A stretch of DNA of 64,000 nt from a virus, in IMG/VR virus record IMGVR_UViG_3300035099_000181, positions 1 through 64,000 of that record. One strand, written 5' to 3'. Under the pieces are notes generated by a model. The model saw only the letters and a list, made by a program, of their open reading frames with translations. It searched no databases and was not told where the DNA came from. Positions within the stretch are counted from its first letter, which is position 1. Each line of letters opens with the position of its first letter. Made by a program: the position numbers and the translations under genes. Below are positions 2,583 to 64,000 of this stretch, one piece after another.

Positions 2583-3192
2583 GCGCAAGCCGATGTCCTA
2601 TGAGATCCAGGACCAGGTTAAGGACGGCATACGGCGCTATTCGGCACTGGTGTCTTCTGGGGCTGACGGTAGCTGTGTGGCCGAATGCCGCAATGCGATT
2701 TATTCCCTGATGTCGGACTTTATGATGATCTGGGTCACGACGATACTTGCCCGGTGGAAGAGGTTCGAGTCATACCAGGAGCGCCTTTCCGCGAGTTGGG
2801 ATGCATTCTGCTTCTGTCTGGATCGCTATCGGAATTACGACATTCCCGTGCCCAAGCATTTTTACGATTATTCCAGGTATTTTCTGCTTTCGCATTACGC
2901 CAAGAAGGACCATGTGTTCTTACCGATAGAGGACTTGCAGAACACGCTGGCTCTCTCCGAGTTGGCCGAGACCGCGCCTTTCGAGAACCTACTGTCCTTA
3001 TACCAGTTCCGGGAGGCTATGCCAGAACTTTACAAGATAGTCTGGGACGACGCCTTGCTGTCCTTGTGCTCCCGCAATGATAGACAGGTAACGGCTCGGC
3101 CAGGCCTGAACACGAATGCCTATTTTCATGTCAAGAAGGGATTCAAGGCTGTCATTTGCTCCGTCCTGGGCGTGAGTGGTGTCACGCGCTAA
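2575..3192 (+). CDS. Unknown protein between terminase and portal, 205 aa
   Basis: The TTG start overlaps the end of terL and has AAGGAGG 8-9 nt upstream, which fixes it. The product is mostly helical, rich in Tyr, Phe and Leu (for example [19 protein letters not shown] at about residues 82-100), with no transmembrane segment or catalytic motif that I recognise. It is co-translated with the terminase. Proteins of this size between terL and portal are sometimes sigma-like or DNA-binding, but I see no motif that supports either role here. Confidence 0.75.
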
Positions 3193-3228
3193 AAGTTAGC
3201 ATTCCTGGCCCTACCTTTTATATTTTGA
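3189..3228 (+). promoter_or_regulatory. Putative phage late promoter, copy 1
   Basis: CTAAAAGTTA (3189-3198) and TTTTATATTTTGA (3216-3228) are separated by exactly 17 nt. The same two boxes with the same spacing recur at 7297-7336. The motif sits in the short gap before the portal gene; its first bases overlap the stop of the preceding gene. The 17-nt spacing and the TATATTTT box suggest a promoter read by host polymerase plus a phage factor, or by a variant sigma factor. Confidence 0.6.
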
Positions 3229-3253
3229 GATCTTTAACCATGGAGATGATGGT

Positions 3254-25901: not shown

Positions 25902-28658
25902 ATGCTTGAAGAGCTGGTAGTAAAGGTTGGGGCCAACACAAATCAGTTTACCTACGCGATGGATCAGATCGTCAGGTCCTCCTCTACTGCTGCAAGCCAG
26001 CTCGTTTCTCATTGGACTTCCGCCTCCGCGAAGATTGCTGCAGCAATAGGCGGATATGGTCTGATGCGTCTGTCCAAGGATTTTCTCCAAGTCGGGATAG
26101 CGGCTGAGACAATGACTAAAAGCCTGTCCGCATCGACAGGCGGCATGAATGAGGCATCTGATTCCATCCAGTTTCTTAGGCAGCAGTCCGAAAGGCTCGG
26201 AACAGTATTCCAAGATCAAATAAGTGGATTTCAGCGCCTTTCCGCTGCAGGCATTCCTCTGAAGTACACTTCCGATGAGATAAAGATGATATGGCTTGGC
26301 TTGGCTGAGGCTGGTACTGCAATGCAAATGACCGGAGAGCAAATGCAGCATACAATGGTTGCCATAGAGCAGACCATGAGTAAGGGCAAGGTCTCCACCG
26401 AGGAATTGAGGCAGCAACTCTCCGAGTCACTCCCAGGCGCGTTTGCCCATGCTGCAGCGGCCATGCAGATGACGGTTCAGGACTTTAGCAAAGCCCTTGC
26501 CAAAGGATCAATAGATTCCAAGGCATTCGTACTCGTGTTCACTGACTATCTGCGCAAAACATTCGCGGAAGGGCTGTCAGAAAGCCTTGATACCACATCA
26601 AGGCAGCTCAATCGGCTGAAGAATACTTGGTATGACCTTCAGACCGCTGTCATGGGCGGGGCCACCATGTCCGAAATAGCAAAGGCATTGAAGGAGCTGA
26701 ACAAGGAATTACGAGATTGGCTAAACAGCAATAGAGAACTCATACAGCAAAAGGTGCCAGAATGGATCAATACGGTGAAGGAAAGGGCGAAAGATGTCTT
26801 TGACTTCATAATGGCAAACAAGGACTTGTCAGAGTTTGGCTTGATAGGCTACCTGATGTTTGGCAAGCAAGGCTTTCTCATAGGTTCCCTGATGGGGACC
26901 GCGATGGGTCTGTTGAAGAAGGCAGAAGGTCCTGAAAGTACTGCGGGATGGAATATCACTAATTTAGCCACGATAGAAGGAGATATAAAGTTTCATAAGG
27001 AACGAATAGAAGAATATACATCAGCGATAGAGGAGTTAAATGCTCAAGGACTCAAAGGAAGGGAATCTTTCTCTTGGTTACACGGAAGCACTTGGGGAGA
27101 ATTGCTGGACATCCAGCAAGCCTTACTTGCTCAGAAAGAGCTGCAAAAGCTAAAGATGGAAGGCTCTGTTGAATTCGACAGGCTGGCGAAGAAATGGGCC
27201 AGGCCCACTCAATATGCCGGCACGGTAATTCACCAAGAAGGTGCTCCCCCTCTTTTAACTGAGGAAGAAGTACAGGCGAATATAGCAAAAGCCTTAGAGG
27301 GAGGCGACCAAAAAGCGGAAAAGGCCGCGCGGCTACGAGCGTCGAGGATAATGGCCCTGAATGTTCGGACCGCCAAGGAGGAGAACAGGCTTACATTTGA
27401 AGGGAAGCGGGAGCAGGCGGAACTTGAATACCAGCTGGCTAGACAAAATGCTATTAAGGATGGGATCCTCAATTCAGAAACCATCAAGGCCATTGAGGGA
27501 GAACGTATCGCCTCATTGAACAGGATAGCGGCAGAAGAGAAGAAGCACAGCCTGAAGATTCAGCAGATGCGGGTTGCCTCACAGTTGGGACTGCTGCCTT
27601 CCGGCCTTCCTTTCACAGCACGAATGCAGGCGGAGGCCGAAGTCGAGAACATAAAAGCTAAAATGGCAGAGGAACTCAAGCCTTATGGAACCGAGAATAC
27701 TCCTCAGGCGATACAGGCGAGGGCAAATGCTGCTATGGTCCTAGCCAACACGCAGATAGCGGGGGACCAGATGGCTCTAAAATCGAAGCAGGCCTGGGCG
27801 CAGGAGACGCAAGATATAGAGAACCAACACCAAAGTTACATGATTGAGAATGCTATGGTCGGCGTGGACCAGATGAGAGCAAGAGCCCATCTGGAAGTGG
27901 AAATCATGCAGCAGAAATATGAACAGTTTGCGGAAATAACTGAAAGCCAGGAAAAGGCTATACGAGACGCAAAACTGGATATAACAGCGGAAGGGGCGGC
28001 ACAGATTGCCGGCTTGGAGGAGAGGCTAGCTCAGGTAAGGAAAAATGCCGCGACCGAAATAGCAGCACATACAATCAAAACCGAACGCGAAATAACTCAG
28101 ATAAAACTTGGAAACCTGTCTGAAATGCTTGGCAATACTGCGGCAGTATTTCAGCAGATATCCCAAGTGGGCGGTAAACATAATGAAACTATGTTTACTA
28201 TGTATAAAGCATTTGCCATTGCTCAGGCTATGATTTCGGCTCATCTTGCTGCTCTTCGAGCCTTAGAATCAAGTTCTCCACCTTTTAGCTATATTATGGC
28301 TGGTATGTCCTATGCCATGGCCATGGTCCAGGTCGCGGCTATCATGTCTGCAAAGCCTCCTTCAATGGACACTGGGGGCATAACAACAACGCCTGGCTTG
28401 TACTACGCAGGCGTGCCGGAGGCCCATATTCCGCTATCCGCCGCGCAGGGCAAGAACATTCCGGTATCTATAGGAAGAGGAAGCAGCAACATCACAATCG
28501 TACAGATGTCAAATCCCGTGTTCCAGGATCAGGAGACGCAGAGGGCGGTCTTCTTCCAGATAGCAGAAATGGTAGCGCGGAAAGTCGCTCCTGGGGCAGT
28601 AGAGGACAATTACTATGCAGACGGAAGCATGCGACGAATCATAAGGAGTAGTCCATGA
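25902..28658 (+). CDS. Tape measure protein, 918 aa
   Basis: The N-terminus MLEELVVKVGANTNQFTYAM and the helical region up to residue 240 (TGGMNEASDSIQFLRQQSER, ISGFQRLSAAGIPLKYTSDE, EELRQQLSESLPGAFAHAAA) match the tape-measure N-terminal domain. Long coiled coils fill residues 300-750, a hydrophobic stretch lies near 795-815, and the Gly-rich tail ends with SMDTGGITTTPGLYYAG. The length would predict a tail of roughly 140 nm at about 1.5 angstrom per residue, a family rule of thumb. It follows the chaperone directly, as expected. Confidence 0.92.
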   Translation: MLEELVVKVGANTNQFTYAMDQIVRSSSTAASQLVSHWTSASAKIAAAIGGYGLMRLSKDFLQVGIAAETMTKSLSASTGGMNEASDSIQFLRQQSERLGTVFQDQISGFQRLSAAGIPLKYTSDEIKMIWLGLAEAGTAMQMTGEQMQHTMVAIEQTMSKGKVSTEELRQQLSESLPGAFAHAAAAMQMTVQDFSKALAKGSIDSKAFVLVFTDYLRKTFAEGLSESLDTTSRQLNRLKNTWYDLQTAVMGGATMSEIAKALKELNKELRDWLNSNRELIQQKVPEWINTVKERAKDVFDFIMANKDLSEFGLIGYLMFGKQGFLIGSLMGTAMGLLKKAEGPESTAGWNITNLATIEGDIKFHKERIEEYTSAIEELNAQGLKGRESFSWLHGSTWGELLDIQQALLAQKELQKLKMEGSVEFDRLAKKWARPTQYAGTVIHQEGAPPLLTEEEVQANIAKALEGGDQKAEKAARLRASRIMALNVRTAKEENRLTFEGKREQAELEYQLARQNAIKDGILNSETIKAIEGERIASLNRIAAEEKKHSLKIQQMRVASQLGLLPSGLPFTARMQAEAEVENIKAKMAEELKPYGTENTPQAIQARANAAMVLANTQIAGDQMALKSKQAWAQETQDIENQHQSYMIENAMVGVDQMRARAHLEVEIMQQKYEQFAEITESQEKAIRDAKLDITAEGAAQIAGLEERLAQVRKNAATEIAAHTIKTEREITQIKLGNLSEMLGNTAAVFQQISQVGGKHNETMFTMYKAFAIAQAMISAHLAALRALESSSPPFSYIMAGMSYAMAMVQVAAIMSAKPPSMDTGGITTTPGLYYAGVPEAHIPLSAAQGKNIPVSIGRGSSNITIVQMSNPVFQDQETQRAVFFQIAEMVARKVAPGAVEDNYYADGSMRRIIRSSP

Positions 28659-29041
28659 GCACAGGTAGAGACTTCGAGACCGTGACAGCGACCTGGGTCT
28701 ATCCTGTAGATGGGGAGGAGTACAACGTCATCACTACCCAGGCCGAGAACATGTATAAGGAATATTACTTGCTTTCCGCCACTCCGCAGAGACAATACAG
28801 ACTCACATGCAAGGACGTTTCCGACACCACATTCGCTCTGATTGTCGCCCACTGGCGCAGCGTGTCGGGGACGTACTATCCCTTCTGGTGGACTACGGTC
28901 CCGAATTATATTGATGGGGGATACGGATCGGGAGTCTCGCTTTGGGGCCGGTGGGTAGGCAAGCCAAAATGGGAGCCCAAGTCGCGCTCCTGGGACGTTG
29001 AGATGGTATTCGAGCAGGACCCCTCGCGAGAAGTGGTGTAG
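28655..29041 (+). CDS. Minor tail protein (gpM-like position), 128 aa
   Basis: The gene overlaps the tape measure stop by four bases. The product has beta strands with aromatic clusters, for example YYLLSATPQRQYRLTCKDV and TYYPFWWTTVPNYIDGGYG. Its position right after the tape measure and before the Fe-S-type tip protein matches lambda gpM or other distal-tail rings. No enzyme motif is present. Confidence 0.65.
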   Translation: MSTGRDFETVTATWVYPVDGEEYNVITTQAENMYKEYYLLSATPQRQYRLTCKDVSDTTFALIVAHWRSVSGTYYPFWWTTVPNYIDGGYGSGVSLWGRWVGKPKWEPKSRSWDVEMVFEQDPSREVV

Positions 29042-29044
29042 AGT

Positions 29045-31375
29045 ATGCCTAAAGACTTCCCAAGTGCGGTATCAGCACAGATCGTGGCGCAGAACAAGCG
29101 CCCTGCTCTTTTGTATGAGCTCGGCATAGCCGGGACCACGCTCTACTACACTGATTCTAAGGAAAGCCTGGTATTCGCTGGGCGCACCTACACACATAAG
29201 GCTATTGCTATTTCTCAGGTTGAGCAATCCGCAGAAGGCCAGATCAACGGAATAACCGTCCAGTTCGACAATACCACACGAGACATGGCTGCTTATGCTA
29301 TCTTGGACACCTTCGAGAACAAACCTTTGGTAGTCAAGCGGATTTACCTTGACGCTATGAGCGGAAGTACTTTGTATAATGAGTACTTCCGGGGCGAGAT
29401 GGAGACCCCGTCTTCTATCGACCAGAGCTGGCTCAAGGTCAAGGCGAACTCAGGCCAGCCTCTTTACAAGAGAGCAATGATTCGTCAGTATCAGAAATCT
29501 TGCAACAACCTGTTTGGCGATGAGAACTGCAACGCCGGATGGTATTCTGATTTGAACTCTATAGCAAATCTTATAGGCTATTGGCCTTTAGATGCCTTAG
29601 ACGGCGGGGTTGCCTTAGACCGGAGCGGATACGGAAACAACGGGACTCCTGAAGGGGGGACTGACGCAGGCGACATCTATCCTGGCGTGCAGGGCAATTG
29701 CTTCGTATTCAATGGGAGGACTAGCACCGCCTCCGACAGGATTGATTGCGGGAACGCTTCTCCTCTCATAAACATTGGCTACGGGAGCTTCACGATATCC
29801 TACTGGTGCAGGCTGAAATATGTTAGTTCTGCTGCTTCAGGGACCACAGGATGCCCAGTCTCCAAATTCGTCTCCCCGGACCTGATAAACTGCCGGTTCG
29901 CCTCGAATGCCCCGAGCTTCATAATAGTCAAGGGGGCTGTTAGCAAGAGTGGCACCTTCACAGATCTCGCCCTGCAGACCAATGACTTCGCATGGCATCA
30001 TTATGTCTTCGTGGTAGACCGAAGTGATACCCTAAACGGGGGCAGCGAGAAGGTCTACTGCTACAAGGATGGCGTATTGAGCGCGACCACCATAGACCTG
30101 ACAGGGCTTGCTTACAACGCCACGAATACGGGGAATGTAAGCATAGGGGGCACGGGATCTGGCTATCTCGGGATACAGGGATACGTCGATGACGTGAGGA
30201 TCTACAACAGGGCACTGACTCCTGGAGAAGTGCTTAAGATCTACAACTACATAGGCAGGAGCATTGTGCCTGGGCTGGTGGGGTATTGGTCAGCTAACGA
30301 GGCGACAGGAACTACCGCATATGACCTAAGCGGAAATGCTAATAACATAACGCTGATAGGCGGTGTGACGAGGGCATCTGGTAAGTTTGGAACAGGAAGC
30401 TTGCATTTTGACGGGAGCGCAAGATACGGCAGCGCAGGGGCAGGAGCTACGCTCAATACGACCACACAGCTTTCCGTGGCCTTTTGGACCAGAATGGACC
30501 ACGCGAATTCTGCCATCCCTACTGACAGCGAGTACTTCCTCGCCAAGGCAAGCGGGAATGCGCAGGTACCAGCAAACTTTTCCTACCGAGTCAACATCAT
30601 GGGCAGGGGGAACAAGAATCTTGACTACATATCCTTCGCCTTGTCCACTGGCGGTGTCTCTCTTGGTACTTCCTCAGCCGCTTCCTTAGTGATGAGCTCT
30701 TTTGCTTTGAACACGTGGTATCATCTGGCGGCGACCTGGAATGGTGTCACGATGCAAATCTACCGCGATGGGCAGGAAGTGAGCACAGTGAGTAGGGGAT
30801 TTGCCTCTACTGTCAATTCCCTTCCCGCTGCTCCATTGTACGTGGGAGTGTCTCAACCTGGAGTTAACGGCATGTACCTGGATGGGGACATAGATGACCT
30901 CAGATTGTGGAGTAGGGGGCTGACCCCTACTGAGGTACTGACTGTCTATAACATAGGCTCTCCTGGCCTTTACTCTCATCAGGGAATTGCTTCTGGACAT
31001 ACTCCTCCTATGACTACTTGTGGCAAGGTGAGGACAGGCAGCACGAACTACTTTACGGACCCAAGCATGTCAGCGCAGGTTGGACCCAATTCCGATGACT
31101 ATTGGAACTTCGGGACCGTTAGGATAGGCAAGTCGGGAACGACCTACACGCGGGTGGTTGATGACTATGTGTCAGGCACGTCAAGAGTGTCATGGACTTT
31201 AGGCCTCCCCGTGACACTAGACAGCACTTACAGATACGAGATTCAGAAGGGGTGCCCAAGAACCATGGAGGCTTGCTCGGGGACATATTCTTATGGGCCA
31301 TACAAGAACAACTCATTAAACTTCGGAGGGTTCGTCCATATAGGCCGCAGCAGAGACAAATTAACAACGATATAG
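29045..31375 (+). CDS. Tail tip protein (gpL/DUF2163-BR0599-like) with two LamG domains
   Basis: Residues 1-165 match the DUF2163/gpL N-terminus (VAQNKRPALLYELGI, YTHKAIAISQVEQSAEGQIN) and end at the first Cys pair, KSCNNLFGDENCNAG. Residues about 175-400 and 405-640 are two LamG/concanavalin-like domains (LIGYWPLDALDGGVALDRSG, LVGYWSANEATGTTAYDLSG, both ending VDDVRIYNRALTPGEV or IDDLRLWSRGLTPTEV). The second Cys part follows at the C-terminus (GCPRTMEACSGTYSYGPYKN, then NFGGFVHIGRSRD). Thus two sugar-binding-like domains are inserted between the two Cys pairs that in gpL bind an Fe-S cluster. It likely sits at the tail tip hub and may bind surface glycans. Confidence 0.82.
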   Translation: MPKDFPSAVSAQIVAQNKRPALLYELGIAGTTLYYTDSKESLVFAGRTYTHKAIAISQVEQSAEGQINGITVQFDNTTRDMAAYAILDTFENKPLVVKRIYLDAMSGSTLYNEYFRGEMETPSSIDQSWLKVKANSGQPLYKRAMIRQYQKSCNNLFGDENCNAGWYSDLNSIANLIGYWPLDALDGGVALDRSGYGNNGTPEGGTDAGDIYPGVQGNCFVFNGRTSTASDRIDCGNASPLINIGYGSFTISYWCRLKYVSSAASGTTGCPVSKFVSPDLINCRFASNAPSFIIVKGAVSKSGTFTDLALQTNDFAWHHYVFVVDRSDTLNGGSEKVYCYKDGVLSATTIDLTGLAYNATNTGNVSIGGTGSGYLGIQGYVDDVRIYNRALTPGEVLKIYNYIGRSIVPGLVGYWSANEATGTTAYDLSGNANNITLIGGVTRASGKFGTGSLHFDGSARYGSAGAGATLNTTTQLSVAFWTRMDHANSAIPTDSEYFLAKASGNAQVPANFSYRVNIMGRGNKNLDYISFALSTGGVSLGTSSAASLVMSSFALNTWYHLAATWNGVTMQIYRDGQEVSTVSRGFASTVNSLPAAPLYVGVSQPGVNGMYLDGDIDDLRLWSRGLTPTEVLTVYNIGSPGLYSHQGIASGHTPPMTTCGKVRTGSTNYFTDPSMSAQVGPNSDDYWNFGTVRIGKSGTTYTRVVDDYVSGTSRVSWTLGLPVTLDSTYRYEIQKGCPRTMEACSGTYSYGPYKNNSLNFGGFVHIGRSRDKLTTI

Positions 31376-52497: not shown

Positions 52498-52599
52498 ATG
52501 GCTCCATGCGTAAGGACTCTTTGTGTAGATTTTGATGGAGTCTTGGTCAAGTACGAAAAGCGGAGTATAGATGAACTTTTGTCATCTTCATGTTCATGA
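52498..52599 (+). pseudogene. Truncated HAD-like fragment, 33 aa
   Basis: The frame reads MAPCVRTLCVDFDGVLVKYE, which contains the HAD motif I DxDGxL, then ends after ELLSSSCS inside the start of dnaE. A normal HAD phosphatase is over 150 residues, so this is a remnant cut by the dnaE insertion, or a short coupling peptide. Confidence 0.45.
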
Positions 52600-55500
52600 T
52601 CAGTATTCACAGCTTGATGGATACGGTTCAGCAGAGCAGTATGCTGATGAAGCATCTCGTTTAGAATTCACCCATCTTGCTCTGACTAATCATGGAAATG
52701 TCGATGGGCTGATTAAATTTCAGAAAGCTTGCTTAGGTAAGGATATAGTGCCTATTTTGGGAAGCGAGTTATATGTGGTGCCTGATATTTCTATTAAGGA
52801 GCCAAAGGAAAAACGCTATCATATTACTGTTCTGGTGAAGAACAATGAAGGCTTTTCTAATCTTCTGCGAATGCTCACTAAGGCCAACTTGGAAGGTTTT
52901 TATAAGCGCCCTCGTGTTAGTCCGGACATGCTTTTGAAATATTGTGGTGGCCTGATTTTTATGACCGCTTGCACATCTTCTATAGTCTATATGTCAAAGG
53001 GTAGGGAGCTGGTTAATGAGCTTGGAGATGCTACTGGGGGAAATATCTATCTTGAAATAATGCCTCACGATTATTCTGATCAAAAGAAGTTGAATAGATT
53101 GCTGCTGGTTATGTCCAAGAAGGATGGATTGCCTTTAGTGGCCACTAACGATTGTCATTATCCTTTGTCTAAGCATACAAAAGTTCAGGAAGTTCTTCTG
53201 GCTATTCAGCGTAAGGCGAAATGGATGGATAAAGATAGATGGCGATTCGAGATAGATGGTCTTTATCTTAGGACCGAGAAGGAAATGGAAGAGGCATTTC
53301 TGAGGCAGGGTATAATTCCACAGAGATTGTTTGCGGAGGCTTTGGTTAGAACTTCAGAAATAGCAAGTAAATGTGGTGGATATAAAATAGAAAAACGCTC
53401 TGTCATTCTGCCTAAAGTCTCGGGATACGAGGATAGGGATGAGACAGAACTGATGTGGGAAATAGTTAATAGAGGCCTTAAGGAGCGCCTCCTTGTTCCG
53501 GGAACAATAAGCAGGGATCAGTTGCCTGCTTATCGTTCTCGGATTAAGGAAGAGATGGATCTTATCTGCGAACTTGGCTTTCAAGGATATTTTCTAATAG
53601 TTTGGGAGCTGATAGATTGGTGCAAAAAGAATGATATTATGACTGGACCTGGCCGAGGGTCTTCCGGAGGCTCTCTTGTGGCATATCTTATGCGAATAAC
53701 TGACGTAGATCCTATAAAGTATGGTCTTGTGTTCGCAAGATTTATCTCTCCTGCCAGGATAGATTTGCCAGATATAGATATGGACTTTGAGGACATAAAG
53801 CGAGATAGGATAAGGAAACACCTTGAAGATAATTATGGTAAGTTCAATGTGTCTGGACTTTCTACCTTTGCGAAAATGAAGGGTCGCGGAGCTATACGGG
53901 ATGTAGCAAGAGTTTTTGATGTTCCTATTTTGGATACAGACAAATGCGCTAAGGCAATAGTTGTAAGATCTGGCGGAGATTTTAGATCCTCCTATACGAT
54001 AGAAGATGCCTGCAAGACCTTCGGCGATGCAATAGATTTCAATAAAAAATATCCAGAAGTTGTAAGTATAGCACAGGATTTGGAGGGGACACTAAGGGCT
54101 AGTGGGCAGCACGCAGCAGCTATTTGCATCTCTTCCGAGGATCTGAGAGAGGGCCTTTGGTGTCATCTTTGCAATAGGAAAGGAGTGGTTGTCGCTAATT
54201 GGGAAAAGTCAGATGCCGAATATATAGGGCTGATGAAATTGGATATTCTGGGTCTTACGGCTTTGACTATACTTAATTACACTAAGAAACTTCTTAAGGA
54301 GAGGCGGGGGGTCTCTATAGTGTTTGATGATATACCTCTGGATGACGAGAAGGTTCTTAGCGAGATAGCTGCTGGCAATAATGTTGGTGCTTTTCAGATC
54401 GGTTCTTCGGGTCTGATGAAACTGTGTAGGGAAATGAAGGTGAAGGAATTTAACGACATAGTCCTTGCATCAGCCTTATTCAGACCTGGGACATTGCGCT
54501 CGGGAATGGTAGAGGAATTTATACAGAGAAGGACAGGGGCAGCCCCTGTGAAGTATATTCATCCATTGCTTGAGCCTTTAACTAAAGAGACACTGGGAAT
54601 TATTCTGTATCAAGAACAGGTCATGTGGCTTATGTACGAGCTTGGTGGGTTGGGGTGGAAGACATGTGACACTGTTCGGAAGGTTATCAGTAAGTCACAA
54701 GGTGATGAATTGTTTGGAAGGTTCAAGCAGCTATTTATAGATGGCTGCCAAGAACGGAAGACTCTTTCAGAGAAAGAGGCAGATAAGGTTTGGGATCAGT
54801 TGAGCAGCTTTGGAAGTTATTCATTCAACAAGAGTCATGCTGTAGAATATTCTCTTATAACCTTTTGGATGATGTGGCTTAAGGCGCATTATCCAAAAGA
54901 GTACTTATGTGCAAGTCTGACATTTACAGGAGCAAATGATAAGGCTAGCTATATAGATGAAGCCAGAAGGCTGGGGCTATCAATAGAACTTCCGCGTGTT
55001 GGTATTTCCAAAGCAACTGAGTGGATTTCCTCTATTGCTGATGATGGGAAAATATTTGCCCCATTTTCAGAGATTAAAGGCATAGGAGAGGCTTCCGCTA
55101 GGCAACTGGAAAAAGCCAAATTGGGTTTTAAGAAGGGCTTTTTTAGAAGTAGAGAATTTCAGTTTGGTGAAGGCCGTAGGCCAAACAGCATGATTATGTC
55201 TGTTCTGGAAGAGATTGGTGCCTTGGGTAACAAGGAGCTTACTGATTCAGAACTGGAGAAAGCAAACAAATATTTTGATTTTGATCTATCAAAAGATAAG
55301 ATGGGTAAATACTCCAAATTATTTCAGAGGCTGAAAGAAAGCATGATTCTTAGCTGTGTGAAAGACATAGACTATCAAAAGCCAAGCACAGATGAGCATT
55401 ATTATTTTGGGCAAATGACCGAGGTGAAATTTGGATATAGGCAGGCAGTCTTAAAGGCACAAAAGAGCGGAATGGGCGATATTTCTGGCACAGATAATCT

Positions 55501-56329
55501 TGGCGGGGTGTATGGCAATTTCAAGGACGAAACAGATTTTACTATGCTGATTTTTGGAGGAGAGCTTTATCAAAGAAAAAAGGCAGATGTAGAGCATTGT
55601 GCTGGTGATTGGATTTTAGCTAAAGCTAATCATCCTAAACGGAAGACTGCAATATTGGCTAACGATGCTTGGATAGGAAAAGAACTTTTATCCTGTGATT
55701 TGGAAGGTTGTAACATTGAACTTATTTCTAATAGTCATCCTTGTGTCTTACCAAATATAGATAAATGTTCATTGTGCTCTTTAAGATCAGAATGCAAAAG
55801 ACCTGTTCCAGCCTCTCCCGGTAAATATAATGTCATGCTGATAGGCGAAGCGCCAGGAAAAGAGGAGGATCTTAAAGGGATAGGATTTATAGGCAAGGCA
55901 GGGAGCGAAGTGCTGTGGCCTGAGCTGGCTAAGTACCGTCTTGATAGAGAGATGTTTCATATCACCAATATTGTAAAGTGCTGGCCAAGTAATACAAAAA
56001 CTCCTTCTAAAAAGCACATATTTGAGTGCTCTTCTATTATCAAGGAAGAGATATCCTCCGTTAGGCCAGTTCTCGCCTTGGCCTTCGGGAATACTAATGT
56101 TAAGTTCTTCAAAGGTTTGGATAGTGGGATTATTGGCCTTAACGCCACGACGGAATGGTCTAATGAATATGGAATGTGGATATGCTGGTGCATTCATCCG
56201 GCTGCCGTTCTTTATCAGCAGCCTAACTTAGATCTGTTTTCTGCTGGAATAGAGAATTTTGTTAAGAAGCTGAGTTATATTGCTGGAGATAAGTTGTCCT
56301 TTCCTTTTACAAGAAAGAGAGAAGAATGA
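52571..56329 (+). CDS. dnaE: DNA polymerase III alpha subunit fused to a family-4 uracil-DNA glycosylase, 1252 aa
   Basis: The PHP domain opens with FCHLHVHDQYSQLDGYG (3-19). The polymerase palm shows LPDIDMDFED (about 398-407), the catalytic Asp pair, and later fingers blocks such as YQEQVMWLMYELGG and GSYSFNKSHAVEYSLITFWM. Residues about 1055-1245 form a type-4 UDG: cysteines in DKCSLCSLRSECKRP, VMLIGEAPGKEED, GFIGKAGSE, FHITNIVKCWPSN and a final CIHPAAVLYQQP, a 4Fe-4S-type glycosylase. The alpha part lacks the usual tau-binding tail. The gene is AT-richer than its neighbours. It may excise uracil during synthesis or repair. Confidence 0.85.
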   Translation: MNFCHLHVHDQYSQLDGYGSAEQYADEASRLEFTHLALTNHGNVDGLIKFQKACLGKDIVPILGSELYVVPDISIKEPKEKRYHITVLVKNNEGFSNLLRMLTKANLEGFYKRPRVSPDMLLKYCGGLIFMTACTSSIVYMSKGRELVNELGDATGGNIYLEIMPHDYSDQKKLNRLLLVMSKKDGLPLVATNDCHYPLSKHTKVQEVLLAIQRKAKWMDKDRWRFEIDGLYLRTEKEMEEAFLRQGIIPQRLFAEALVRTSEIASKCGGYKIEKRSVILPKVSGYEDRDETELMWEIVNRGLKERLLVPGTISRDQLPAYRSRIKEEMDLICELGFQGYFLIVWELIDWCKKNDIMTGPGRGSSGGSLVAYLMRITDVDPIKYGLVFARFISPARIDLPDIDMDFEDIKRDRIRKHLEDNYGKFNVSGLSTFAKMKGRGAIRDVARVFDVPILDTDKCAKAIVVRSGGDFRSSYTIEDACKTFGDAIDFNKKYPEVVSIAQDLEGTLRASGQHAAAICISSEDLREGLWCHLCNRKGVVVANWEKSDAEYIGLMKLDILGLTALTILNYTKKLLKERRGVSIVFDDIPLDDEKVLSEIAAGNNVGAFQIGSSGLMKLCREMKVKEFNDIVLASALFRPGTLRSGMVEEFIQRRTGAAPVKYIHPLLEPLTKETLGIILYQEQVMWLMYELGGLGWKTCDTVRKVISKSQGDELFGRFKQLFIDGCQERKTLSEKEADKVWDQLSSFGSYSFNKSHAVEYSLITFWMMWLKAHYPKEYLCASLTFTGANDKASYIDEARRLGLSIELPRVGISKATEWISSIADDGKIFAPFSEIKGIGEASARQLEKAKLGFKKGFFRSREFQFGEGRRPNSMIMSVLEEIGALGNKELTDSELEKANKYFDFDLSKDKMGKYSKLFQRLKESMILSCVKDIDYQKPSTDEHYYFGQMTEVKFGYRQAVLKAQKSGMGDISGTDNLGGVYGNFKDETDFTMLIFGGELYQRKKADVEHCAGDWILAKANHPKRKTAILANDAWIGKELLSCDLEGCNIELISNSHPCVLPNIDKCSLCSLRSECKRPVPASPGKYNVMLIGEAPGKEEDLKGIGFIGKAGSEVLWPELAKYRLDREMFHITNIVKCWPSNTKTPSKKHIFECSSIIKEEISSVRPVLALAFGNTNVKFFKGLDSGIIGLNATTEWSNEYGMWICWCIHPAAVLYQQPNLDLFSAGIENFVKKLSYIAGDKLSFPFTRKREE

Positions 56330-61486: not shown

Positions 61487-62035
61487 ATGTCAAGAAAGAA
61501 GATGCACGAGGAGCCGAAAAGGGTTTACGCATGGAGGGACGGTAGTGGGAAGCGGTTTGGGAAGTTTGATGCCCAACCTGCGGGCGAGGAAGTGGAGAAG
61601 CTTCAGAAGTTACATGGGCATGAACTTGAGCCTGCGGACGTTGTGGAGGCGGCAGCAGATGAGAAGAATGTTCTGCATGACTTATTCGAGTGGGACAATC
61701 TGAAGGCCGGACACGAATGGAGGCTGCAGCAGGCGCGTTTCCTTTTGCAGTCCCTCAAGGTGACGATCACTCATTATGATGGGAAGACGATCACGTTGGA
61801 TCGGGCGACGGCGGTGCTTCCCGCCAAGAATGGTTCAGGCGGGAAAAAATATGTCATGATGGAACGGGCGATGCGGGATGCGGACAGCAGGAACTATCTG
61901 CTCCGGGTGGCGTTGCTTGAGGCCATCGCGTTCAGGAACAAGTACAAGGAGCTGTCGGAACTGACGAAGATCTTTGTCGAGATTGACCTGGCATACAAGG
62001 AGCATGCCGGGGAACTGAAGCAGTGCGTCATGTGA
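61487..62035 (+). CDS. Unknown protein downstream of recombinase, 182 aa
   Basis: I place the start at 61487, just after AGGAGGG; an in-frame ATG 61463 overlaps the recombinase end. The product MSRKKMHEEPKRVYAWRDGS has a basic head, a central helix (FEWDNLKAGHEWRLQQARFL), beta strands (VTITHYDGKTITLDRATAVL) and a helical tail. No family recognised. The first NNAGC array starts about 35 bp after its stop. Confidence 0.65.
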   Translation: MSRKKMHEEPKRVYAWRDGSGKRFGKFDAQPAGEEVEKLQKLHGHELEPADVVEAAADEKNVLHDLFEWDNLKAGHEWRLQQARFLLQSLKVTITHYDGKTITLDRATAVLPAKNGSGGKKYVMMERAMRDADSRNYLLRVALLEAIAFRNKYKELSELTKIFVEIDLAYKEHAGELKQCVM

Positions 62036-62069: not shown

Positions 62070-62708
62070 AGTAAAGCAAAGCAAGGCAGGCGGAGCGAAG
62101 CAGAGCATAGCAAAGCCAAACAAAGCAAGGCAGGCGAAGCGGAGCACAGCGGAGCAAAGCAGAGCCGAGCAAAGCAAAGCAAGGCAGGCTAAGCGAAGCA
62201 GAGCCCAGCACAGCCCAGCAAAGCCCAGCAGAGCCTAGCAAAGCAAGGCAGGCGGAGCATAGCCTAGCTTAGCCGAGCAGAGCCAAGCACAGCTAAATAA
62301 AGCAATGCAGGCAGAGCTTAGCTTAGCGTAGCCCAGCCAAGCACAGCCAAGCAAAGCAAGGCAGGCTAAGCTTAGCATAGCTTAGCAAAGCTAAGCAAAG
62401 CAAGGCAGGCCAAGCGGAGCCGAGCACAGCATAGCTTAGCAAAGCCAAGCAAAGCAAGGCAGGCCAAGCGGAGCCGAGCACAGCAGAGCTGAGCTGAGCC
62501 AAGCAAAGCAAGGCAGGCAAAGCATAGCGCAGCGCAGCTTAGCAGAGCGTAGCGAAACAAAGCAAAGCAGGCCAAGCGTAGCATAGCAAAGCAAAGCGTA
62601 GCTGAGCCAAGCTGAGCGAAGCAAAGCAAGGCAGGCTAAGCAAAGCGTAGCTCAGCCAAGCGTAGCCTAGCAAAGCTCAGCTAAGCAAAGCAAGCAAAGC
62701 AAGGCAGA
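62070..62708 (+). repeat. NNAGC pentamer array 1
   Basis: About 640 bp consist almost wholly of 5-bp units NNAGC with varying NN. Roughly every 44-64 bp the run closes with AAAGC AAGGC AGGC, where AGGC is a 4-mer. The distances between successive AAGGCAGG cores are 44, 54, 64, 59, 54, 44, 54, 54, 54, 64 and 73 bp, that is 5n-1 (73 has one extra 4-mer), so the pentamer phase slips by one base at each core. There are 12 cores. Long minus-strand frames here (Ala/Leu/Cys-rich) are artefacts of the pentamer. No gene is supported in 62036-62773. Confidence 0.95.
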
Positions 62709-62709
62709 A

Positions 62710-62736
62710 GGCGATTGGCAGTCGCCTATCGCCAAT
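62710..62736. promoter_or_regulatory. Hairpin after array 1
   Basis: GGCGATTGGC... with ATTGGC (62714-62719) pairing to GCCAAT (62731-62736), or alternatively GGCGA to TCGCC. Two exclusive stems are possible, just upstream of the gene at 62774. It could be an attenuator or the array boundary. Confidence 0.45.
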
Positions 62737-62773: not shown

Positions 62774-63493
62774 ATGGCAAGGAAGGCAGTGTCAGAAGCT
62801 AACGTGGCAATTACTATTAGTTCCCCCAAGTTTGACATCTTCAAATGTTCGATAATTGGGAGTTCTCCATTCGTGTCGAATAAGTTTTCCGAGAAGGCAC
62901 GGATTATGATGGAGGAGGCCCAGATGCAGGGGCAGGCAGCCAAGACGACGAGGAAGAGGGAACCGAAGGATTTCGAGTCTCTTTACCTCGGGTCTATGCA
63001 TCTTGCGGATTCCGGTGATTGGTATGGCATTCCGTGCTCGGCCTTTAGGAGCGCCATGATCAAGGCATGTAGCATTGTTGGTGTGCATATGACAAAGGCT
63101 AAGATGTGCGTCTTTGTTGAGCCTGATGGGTTTAGCAGGGAAGGAACGGCGTTGGTCAGGATAACGAAGGGGGAACCTAAGATGTTCAAGGCGGCGGTAA
63201 TATTGGCGTCTGGAGTTCCCGATATTTCCGCGCGTGGAATGTGGATGCCTGGATGGGAAGCGGAGCTGCGGATACGGTACGACTCGGATATCTTCTCTCC
63301 GGAGACCGTGGCTAACCTTCTGATGAGGGCTGGATTGCAGGTGGGAGTTGGTGCCGGTCGCCATGCTTCCGAAAGGTCGTCCGGGCAAGGGTGGGGGGAG
63401 TTCATGTTGAAGACGGATTCTCAGGATATGGGCAGGGAAGAGGGACTTGAGGCAAACCCTGTTCCAAAAAGGAGATTGAGACAGGCAGCATAG
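62774..63493 (+). CDS. Conserved phage protein between the arrays, 239 aa
   Basis: AAGGAGAAA precedes the ATG. The product has MARKAVSEANVAITISSPKF, then IPCSAFRSAMIKACSIVGVH MTKAKMCVFVEPDG (about 86-118), ISARGMWMPGWEAELRIRYD (about 156-175) and LLMRAGLQVGVGAGRHASER (about 188-207) and GWGEF. This GI/PC.AFR.AMI...G and VG.GAGR..S...GWG pattern recurs in environmental phage proteins next to recombination genes; its role is unknown. The glycine-rich RAMP-like strands could bind nucleic acid. Being the only gene between the two arrays, it may act on them. Confidence 0.75.
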   Translation: MARKAVSEANVAITISSPKFDIFKCSIIGSSPFVSNKFSEKARIMMEEAQMQGQAAKTTRKREPKDFESLYLGSMHLADSGDWYGIPCSAFRSAMIKACSIVGVHMTKAKMCVFVEPDGFSREGTALVRITKGEPKMFKAAVILASGVPDISARGMWMPGWEAELRIRYDSDIFSPETVANLLMRAGLQVGVGAGRHASERSSGQGWGEFMLKTDSQDMGREEGLEANPVPKRRLRQAA

Positions 63494-63557: not shown

Positions 63558-63569
63558 TAATCCGAACAA

Positions 63570-64000
63570 AGCAAAGCAGGCCAAGCCCAGCATAGCCCAG
63601 CAAAGCTAAGCCGAGCTAAGCTGAGCCCAGCAAAGCAAGGCAGGCGAAGCAGAGCATAGCATAGCCAAGCAAAGCAAAGCAAAGCCCAGCTAAACAAAGC
63701 AAGGCAGGCGAAGCATAGCGTAGCAAAGCAAAGCAAAGCCCAGCTAAACAAAGCAAGGCAGGCGAAGCGTAGCTCAGCAAAGCATAGTGCAGCACAGCGG
63801 AGCCAAGCATAGTAAAGCAAAGCAAGGCAGGCTAAGCTAAGCATAGCACAGCAGAGCGTAGCAAGGAAAAGCAAGGCAGGCGTAGCTGAGCCCAGCGGAG
63901 CATAGCGGAGCAAAGCGGAGCAGAGCAAGGCAGGCGGAGCAGAGCGGAGCAAAGCGCAGCAGAGCAAAGCCCAGCATAGCGGAGCAGAGCTAAACAAAGC
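63570..64000 (+). repeat. NNAGC pentamer array 2 (runs past the window)
   Basis: The array follows the same rule as array 1. Cores (AAGGCAGG, first one AAAGCAGG) lie at 63573, 63637, 63701, 63755, 63824, 63873 and 63927, with spacings 64, 64, 54, 69, 49 and 54 bp, all 5n-1. Two neighbouring cassettes (about 63670-63770) are nearly identical, showing recent tandem duplication. The window ends inside a cassette (TAAACAAAGC). Confidence 0.95.

Follow-up and report, generated by a model that had tools for sequence, protein, structure and literature searches.

We found that the arrays of NNAGC pentamers in a 64,000-nucleotide stretch of viral DNA (hereafter the window; positions 1 to 64,000 of the 101,070-base IMG/VR record IMGVR_UViG_3300035099_000181) are very probably vrRNA arrays of a tailed-phage VIPR system in an AGC form, which is the best explanation of the feature as a whole; the array itself is real and functional in design. 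According to the accessible part of the 2026 preprint that introduced them (PMC13142463), VIPR systems combine a RAMP protein, Vipr, with vrRNA guides made of pentamers, in each of which two hypervariable bases (NN) precede a fixed GGY 'or a related consensus'; double-stranded DNA is read by the NN bases, one base being skipped between successive pairs. VIPR, described only very recently, is a candidate ancestor of CRISPR and, since it works without a PAM, a small programmable tool for binding DNA; it is widened by the AGC class, which is common in viral metagenomes. The original prediction, made from the letters of the window, knew of no described repeat class with such a rule; as far as the accessible text of the preprint goes, this has been incorrect since April 2026 (PMC13142463). 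Its guess of a stored variable code, on the other hand, agrees with guide RNAs in which the NN bases specify the target.

In array 1 (62074..62708, plus strand), NNAGC pentamers form about 11 cassettes, each with the closing sequence AAAGC AAGGC AGGC, and array 2, which has the same core, runs on the plus strand from 63563 to 64000 and on to 64078 of the record, the window boundary at 64000 cutting through it. Only the former had been noticed at first, as a single array at 62070-62708. The 239-aa vipr gene sits between the two on the same strand, and all matches of both arrays lie on the plus strand. Of the 104 AGC triplets in array 1, 88 are followed by another AGC at a distance of exactly 5 bases, whereas 300 dinucleotide-preserving shuffles yielded 11.7 such pairs on average and 23 at most; the NN positions of this array use all 16 dinucleotides, with an entropy of 3.67 of 4 bits. 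These results bear out the NNAGC array as it was predicted. The triplet proved less rigid than claimed: across both arrays AGC ends 180 of the 214 pentamers and GGC 17 (mostly in cores), and a few end in AAC or AGT; since this is not the strict GGY, the system of the window was filed as a variant of VIPR. Similarly, the proposed closing core holds in general, but two cores of array 1 have AATGC or AAAGC where AAGGC is expected, and the last cassette of this array closes with AAGCAAAGCAAGGCAG. One 69-base cassette of array 2 (63764-63832) has an exact second copy at 64010-64078. A hairpin, GGCGATTGGC-AGTC-GCCTATCGCC, follows array 1 (62710..62733, plus strand); it is weak evidence when taken alone (RNA fold of -16 kcal/mol, z of about -2) and the last vrRNA may have its 3' end or its tail here. 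Open reading frames across the array are of low complexity, and it was rejected as a coding sequence. An Rfam search of the array gave sub-threshold matches only, no DNA similarity to known phages was detected, a word-based literature search for AGC pentamer repeats returned none, and a genome search for the pattern GGCAGGC(NNAGC)3 yielded single matches mostly.

The prediction that the core-to-core distance is always 5n-1 was correct for all 18 steps within the arrays, which equal 4 modulo 5: 44, 54, 64, 59, 54, 44, 54, 54, 54 and 64 bases in array 1, and 64, 64, 54, 69, 49, 54, 74 and 69 bases in array 2. In 80 related loci, successive triplets of an array are 5 bases apart 3074 times, 4 bases apart 139 times and 6 bases apart only twice, and the one-base reset occurs with GGC as well as with AGC triplets. 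Its recurrence across relatives shows the reset to be a conserved array feature. It would mark the boundary of a guide unit, and so provides a sequence mark of where a guide may end.

The gene between the arrays (62774..63493, plus strand) encodes a protein of 239 amino acids belonging to phrog_4652, which, judged by homology and fold, is a Vipr and thus a RAMP-type RNA-binding protein related to the CRISPR RAMPs. A profile built from an alignment of 31 Viprs, from which that of SUSP1 had been excluded, matched PDB entry 36pp, the solved 'SUSP1 Vipr protein', at E=1.5e-43; an 11-sequence model had recovered the SUSP1 Vipr at E=2.8e-10 before its inclusion. The SUSP1 vipr gene (28474-29061) adjoins GGY arrays. 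The best PDB matches found by Foldseek with the AlphaFold model of the window protein (pLDDT 81.8) were RAMP subunits of Csm, Cmr and type VII complexes, albeit at modest similarity (TM mostly 0.35-0.5, best E of 1e-4). A glycine-rich loop, GVGAGR (hereafter the G-loop), is present in the sequence and modelled at low confidence; it includes Ala194 (codon GCC, 63353..63355, plus strand), a position that is acidic in Viprs of the GGY type. Pfam, NCBIfam and PADLOC contained no match for Vipr or for the neighbouring gene described below.

Both the array and the protein have numerous relatives. In IMG/VR, at least 120 stretches contain seven consecutive AGC at period 5; many of them hold long arrays in which nearly all NN occur, and many adjoin a gene with a terminal glycine-rich GxGxxR motif; profile searches identified these genes as relatives of the 239-aa protein. 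When 80 relatives of Vipr were collected by protein alone, without the array motif, a period-5 triplet array was located within 700-900 bases of vipr in 77 of 80, versus 3 of 124 control stretches, and the strand of the array relative to vipr was fixed in nearly all loci. The triplet is GGC in most of these arrays and AGC in a few, and in at least one case, locus L329, both occur within one array. Among relatives with a named host, cyanophage Cy-LDV1 (BK059895) encodes a Vipr 42% identical to that of the window, with GGC arrays near vipr and the same AGGC reset.

These relatives point to a probable determinant of the triplet. In the 80 loci, residue 194 was the standout column by triplet type: Glu occupies it in 52 of 53 GGC types, Ala or Cys in 7 of 7 AGC types. 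Among all Viprs in hand, dereplicated at 85% identity, an acidic residue (Asp or Glu) went with GGY in 51 of 51 systems, a set in which L358, in fact mostly CGC, was counted as not-A; a neutral residue (n=34) went with AGY in 28 systems, with a mixture in 4 and with GGY in 2, that is, with AGY or a mixture in 32 of 34. When only the loci collected through the protein are considered, none of 51 Viprs with an acidic residue but 5 of 7 with a neutral one are accompanied by AGY or mixed arrays (Fisher 4.6e-6, ignoring relatedness). The 27 Viprs chosen by motif are all neutral at this position, and because of that selection they test one direction only. In leave-one-out prediction of the triplet, residue 194 was correct in 96% of cases, compared with 85% for the next column and a base rate of 62%. 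The rule had been written down before a later batch of seven Viprs from other bacterial phyla was fetched; all seven were acidic, so the batch covers the acidic side only, and all six with arrays had GGY (the array of L419 being weak). The best tree implies about 11 triplet switches, and well-supported branches carry only two independent pairs, too few for significance in an independent-contrast test.

Several exceptions define how the rule has to be read. Loci L312 and L313 combine Ala with GGC; in L094, which has Glu, the AGC array is on the other strand; the Vipr of Vibrio phages L408 and L409 is of the Asp type, and their period-5 arrays consist of TGY and lie on the strand opposite to it; and L358, L359 and part of L372, whose Vipr is of the Glu type, have mostly CGC or a mixture of CGC and GGC, so that CGC is possibly a third triplet type. 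The rule is therefore that an acidic residue excludes A and a neutral one permits it. We consider it likely that this one G-loop residue sets the first scaffold base, with Asp or Glu requiring G (GGY) and a neutral residue allowing A (AGY or mixed), that the two types are partly orthogonal and have been switched repeatedly by phages, and that the window, with Ala194 and AGC, is a natural example of the AGC type. Residue 194 may contact the first base of the triplet directly. If true, the single-residue rule would explain guide recognition and make it possible to match orthogonal guides to Viprs of choice. Three points are new relative to the accessible preprint text, namely the residue rule, how widespread the AGC form is, and the conservation of the 5n-1 reset; part of this may be known to the authors of the preprint.

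The window has the tandem pentamers, fixed triplet, hypervariable NN and flanking vipr of a VIPR system; its AAAGC AAGGC AGGC core is constant, and a hairpin is present after array 1 only. As described in the accessible part of the preprint (PMC13142463) and in PDB 36pp, the SUSP1 clade shares with it a homologous Vipr, residence in a phage and hypervariable-NN pentamer arrays in intergenic stretches flanking vipr, and has an accessory gene where the window has a candidate for one. It differs in having GGY and an acidic G-loop residue, where the window has AGC and a neutral one, in its long folded 3' tail, where the units of the window have a short core and a 4-base reset, and in the accessory gene itself. 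Cy-LDV1, in spite of its close Vipr, its arrays near vipr and its AGGC reset, has the GGC triplet with Glu at the G-loop position, in contrast to AGC and Ala in the window. The class 1 CRISPR RAMPs (Csm3, Cmr, type VII Cas7) have the predicted fold in common with Vipr, which by homology would be a guide-coating RAMP subunit as they are; however, those systems have a period of 6, repeats with contiguous spacers and cas genes, whereas the window has a period of 5 and none of these nearby. CRISPR-Cas identity was rejected on these grounds, namely the fixed AGC every five bases, the lack of contiguous spacers and a scan of ten local proteins in which no cas family appeared.

By analogy with the SUSP1 experiments, as far as the preprint text is accessible (PMC13142463), the arrays would be transcribed as RNA from the strand of the vipr gene, and Vipr, as a relative of Cas7 and other RAMPs, would bind the guide RNA. 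One guide unit would be a cassette of about 6 to 13 NNAGC pentamers with the constant core; one Vipr subunit per pentamer may coat the RNA and hold the fixed AGC, and the 4-base AGGC would break the 5-base register and thereby end the guide. Use of AGC would go with the neutral Ala194, an acidic residue demanding G. Each NN would, as in SUSP1, be presented for pairing with double-stranded DNA, so that the target reads NN-x-NN-x with one base skipped, and the bound complex would repress a competing mobile element (PMC13142463).

It is this targeting step that meets the strongest of the alternatives: the AGC arrays might be vrRNAs that follow a target rule other than NN-x, or decoys that titrate rival Viprs. 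The one-base skip indeed gave no target. Four guides of the window, each searched with 16-18 fixed bases and the other NN held back for checking, matched 7, 25, 1 and 6 times in 2.9 million viral contigs, about the number estimated for chance, and the held-back NN positions agreed at about chance level. The best match (L375) agreed at 22 of 24 body positions, where about one such match is expected, and is not in codon phase. In a comparison of 383 guides with all fetched loci, no skip length showed an excess, and the one-base skip performed no better than other skips or reversed order. Nevertheless, the lack of a target above chance in a wide search of only four guides is weak evidence either way, and the clade, period and core are the same as in GGC types; we give another rule or a decoy function a small, though not negligible, probability.

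It is very improbable that the array acts as DNA, in packaging, segregation or as an origin, bound by a protein that reads every half turn. The arrays are intergenic, repeated and close to replication genes, as such an element would be, but their strand is fixed relative to vipr in nearly all loci, their NN is hypervariable, and the protein that goes with them has the RNA-binding fold of a RAMP. Of the original proposal of an array bound by an AGC-reading protein, the reading of the triplet probably stands, with Vipr as the reader and most likely on RNA, and the suggested roles in packaging, segregation or replication are without support. A functionless degenerate microsatellite, produced by AAAGC slippage and point mutation, is the least credible reading: the pentamer period would suit it, and the 69-base duplication together with shared half-cassettes demonstrates that copying happens, but AGC and the core stay constant while the N positions vary over all dinucleotides, five-base pairs far exceed those of the shuffles, arrays adjoin vipr in nearly all loci, and the reset recurs in diverse phages, with the core kept and 270 of 344 core-to-core distances in relatives at 4 modulo 5, whereas plain slippage in relatives had been named as the outcome that would count against the original prediction.

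Upstream of array 1 lies a further gene (61487..62035, plus strand), which encodes 182 amino acids from the ATG at 61487 and is a candidate vap (vipr-accessory) gene. The protein matched phrog_15946, a family of unknown function, at E=1e-13, and its relatives adjoin vipr in 70 of the 80 loci picked by Vipr protein alone, on the same strand in all 70. Its AlphaFold model (pLDDT 82.7) matched no PDB fold, and no relatedness to SUSP1 genes was detectable, nor a match to any of vap1-6. A RecA/UvsX-like gene is also found upstream of array 1, on the plus strand like the array and its neighbours.

Several further features of the genome and its relatives were observed. An unusual fusion is encoded at 52571-56329 of the window, in which DNA polymerase III alpha carries a uracil-DNA glycosylase domain at its C-terminus (PF03167, residues 1085-1218, E=4.5e-20). 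Directly after array 2, at 64082-64396 of the record (L010:4083-4397), lies a 5'-3' exonuclease gene with the N-terminal domain only; no ATG, GTG or TTG start precedes it and PF01367, the C-terminal domain, is absent from the whole record, so that the gene is decayed, split or misassembled. Both record ends (1-141 and 100944-101070) share a 44-base tandem repeat; the genome may accordingly be circular or have terminal repeats. A long run of genes at about 72000-97000 of the record, as seen by eye in the list of open reading frames, resembles surface-sugar biosynthesis (sugar transferases, NeuB-like, aminotransferase-like). Finally, in Gordonia phage MakoManhole (L384), GGY arrays at 1641-1772 and 2885-3235 are interleaved with a recurring segment, GGTTCGACTCC..., which resembles part of a tRNA and is perhaps a vrRNA tail or a processing signal.
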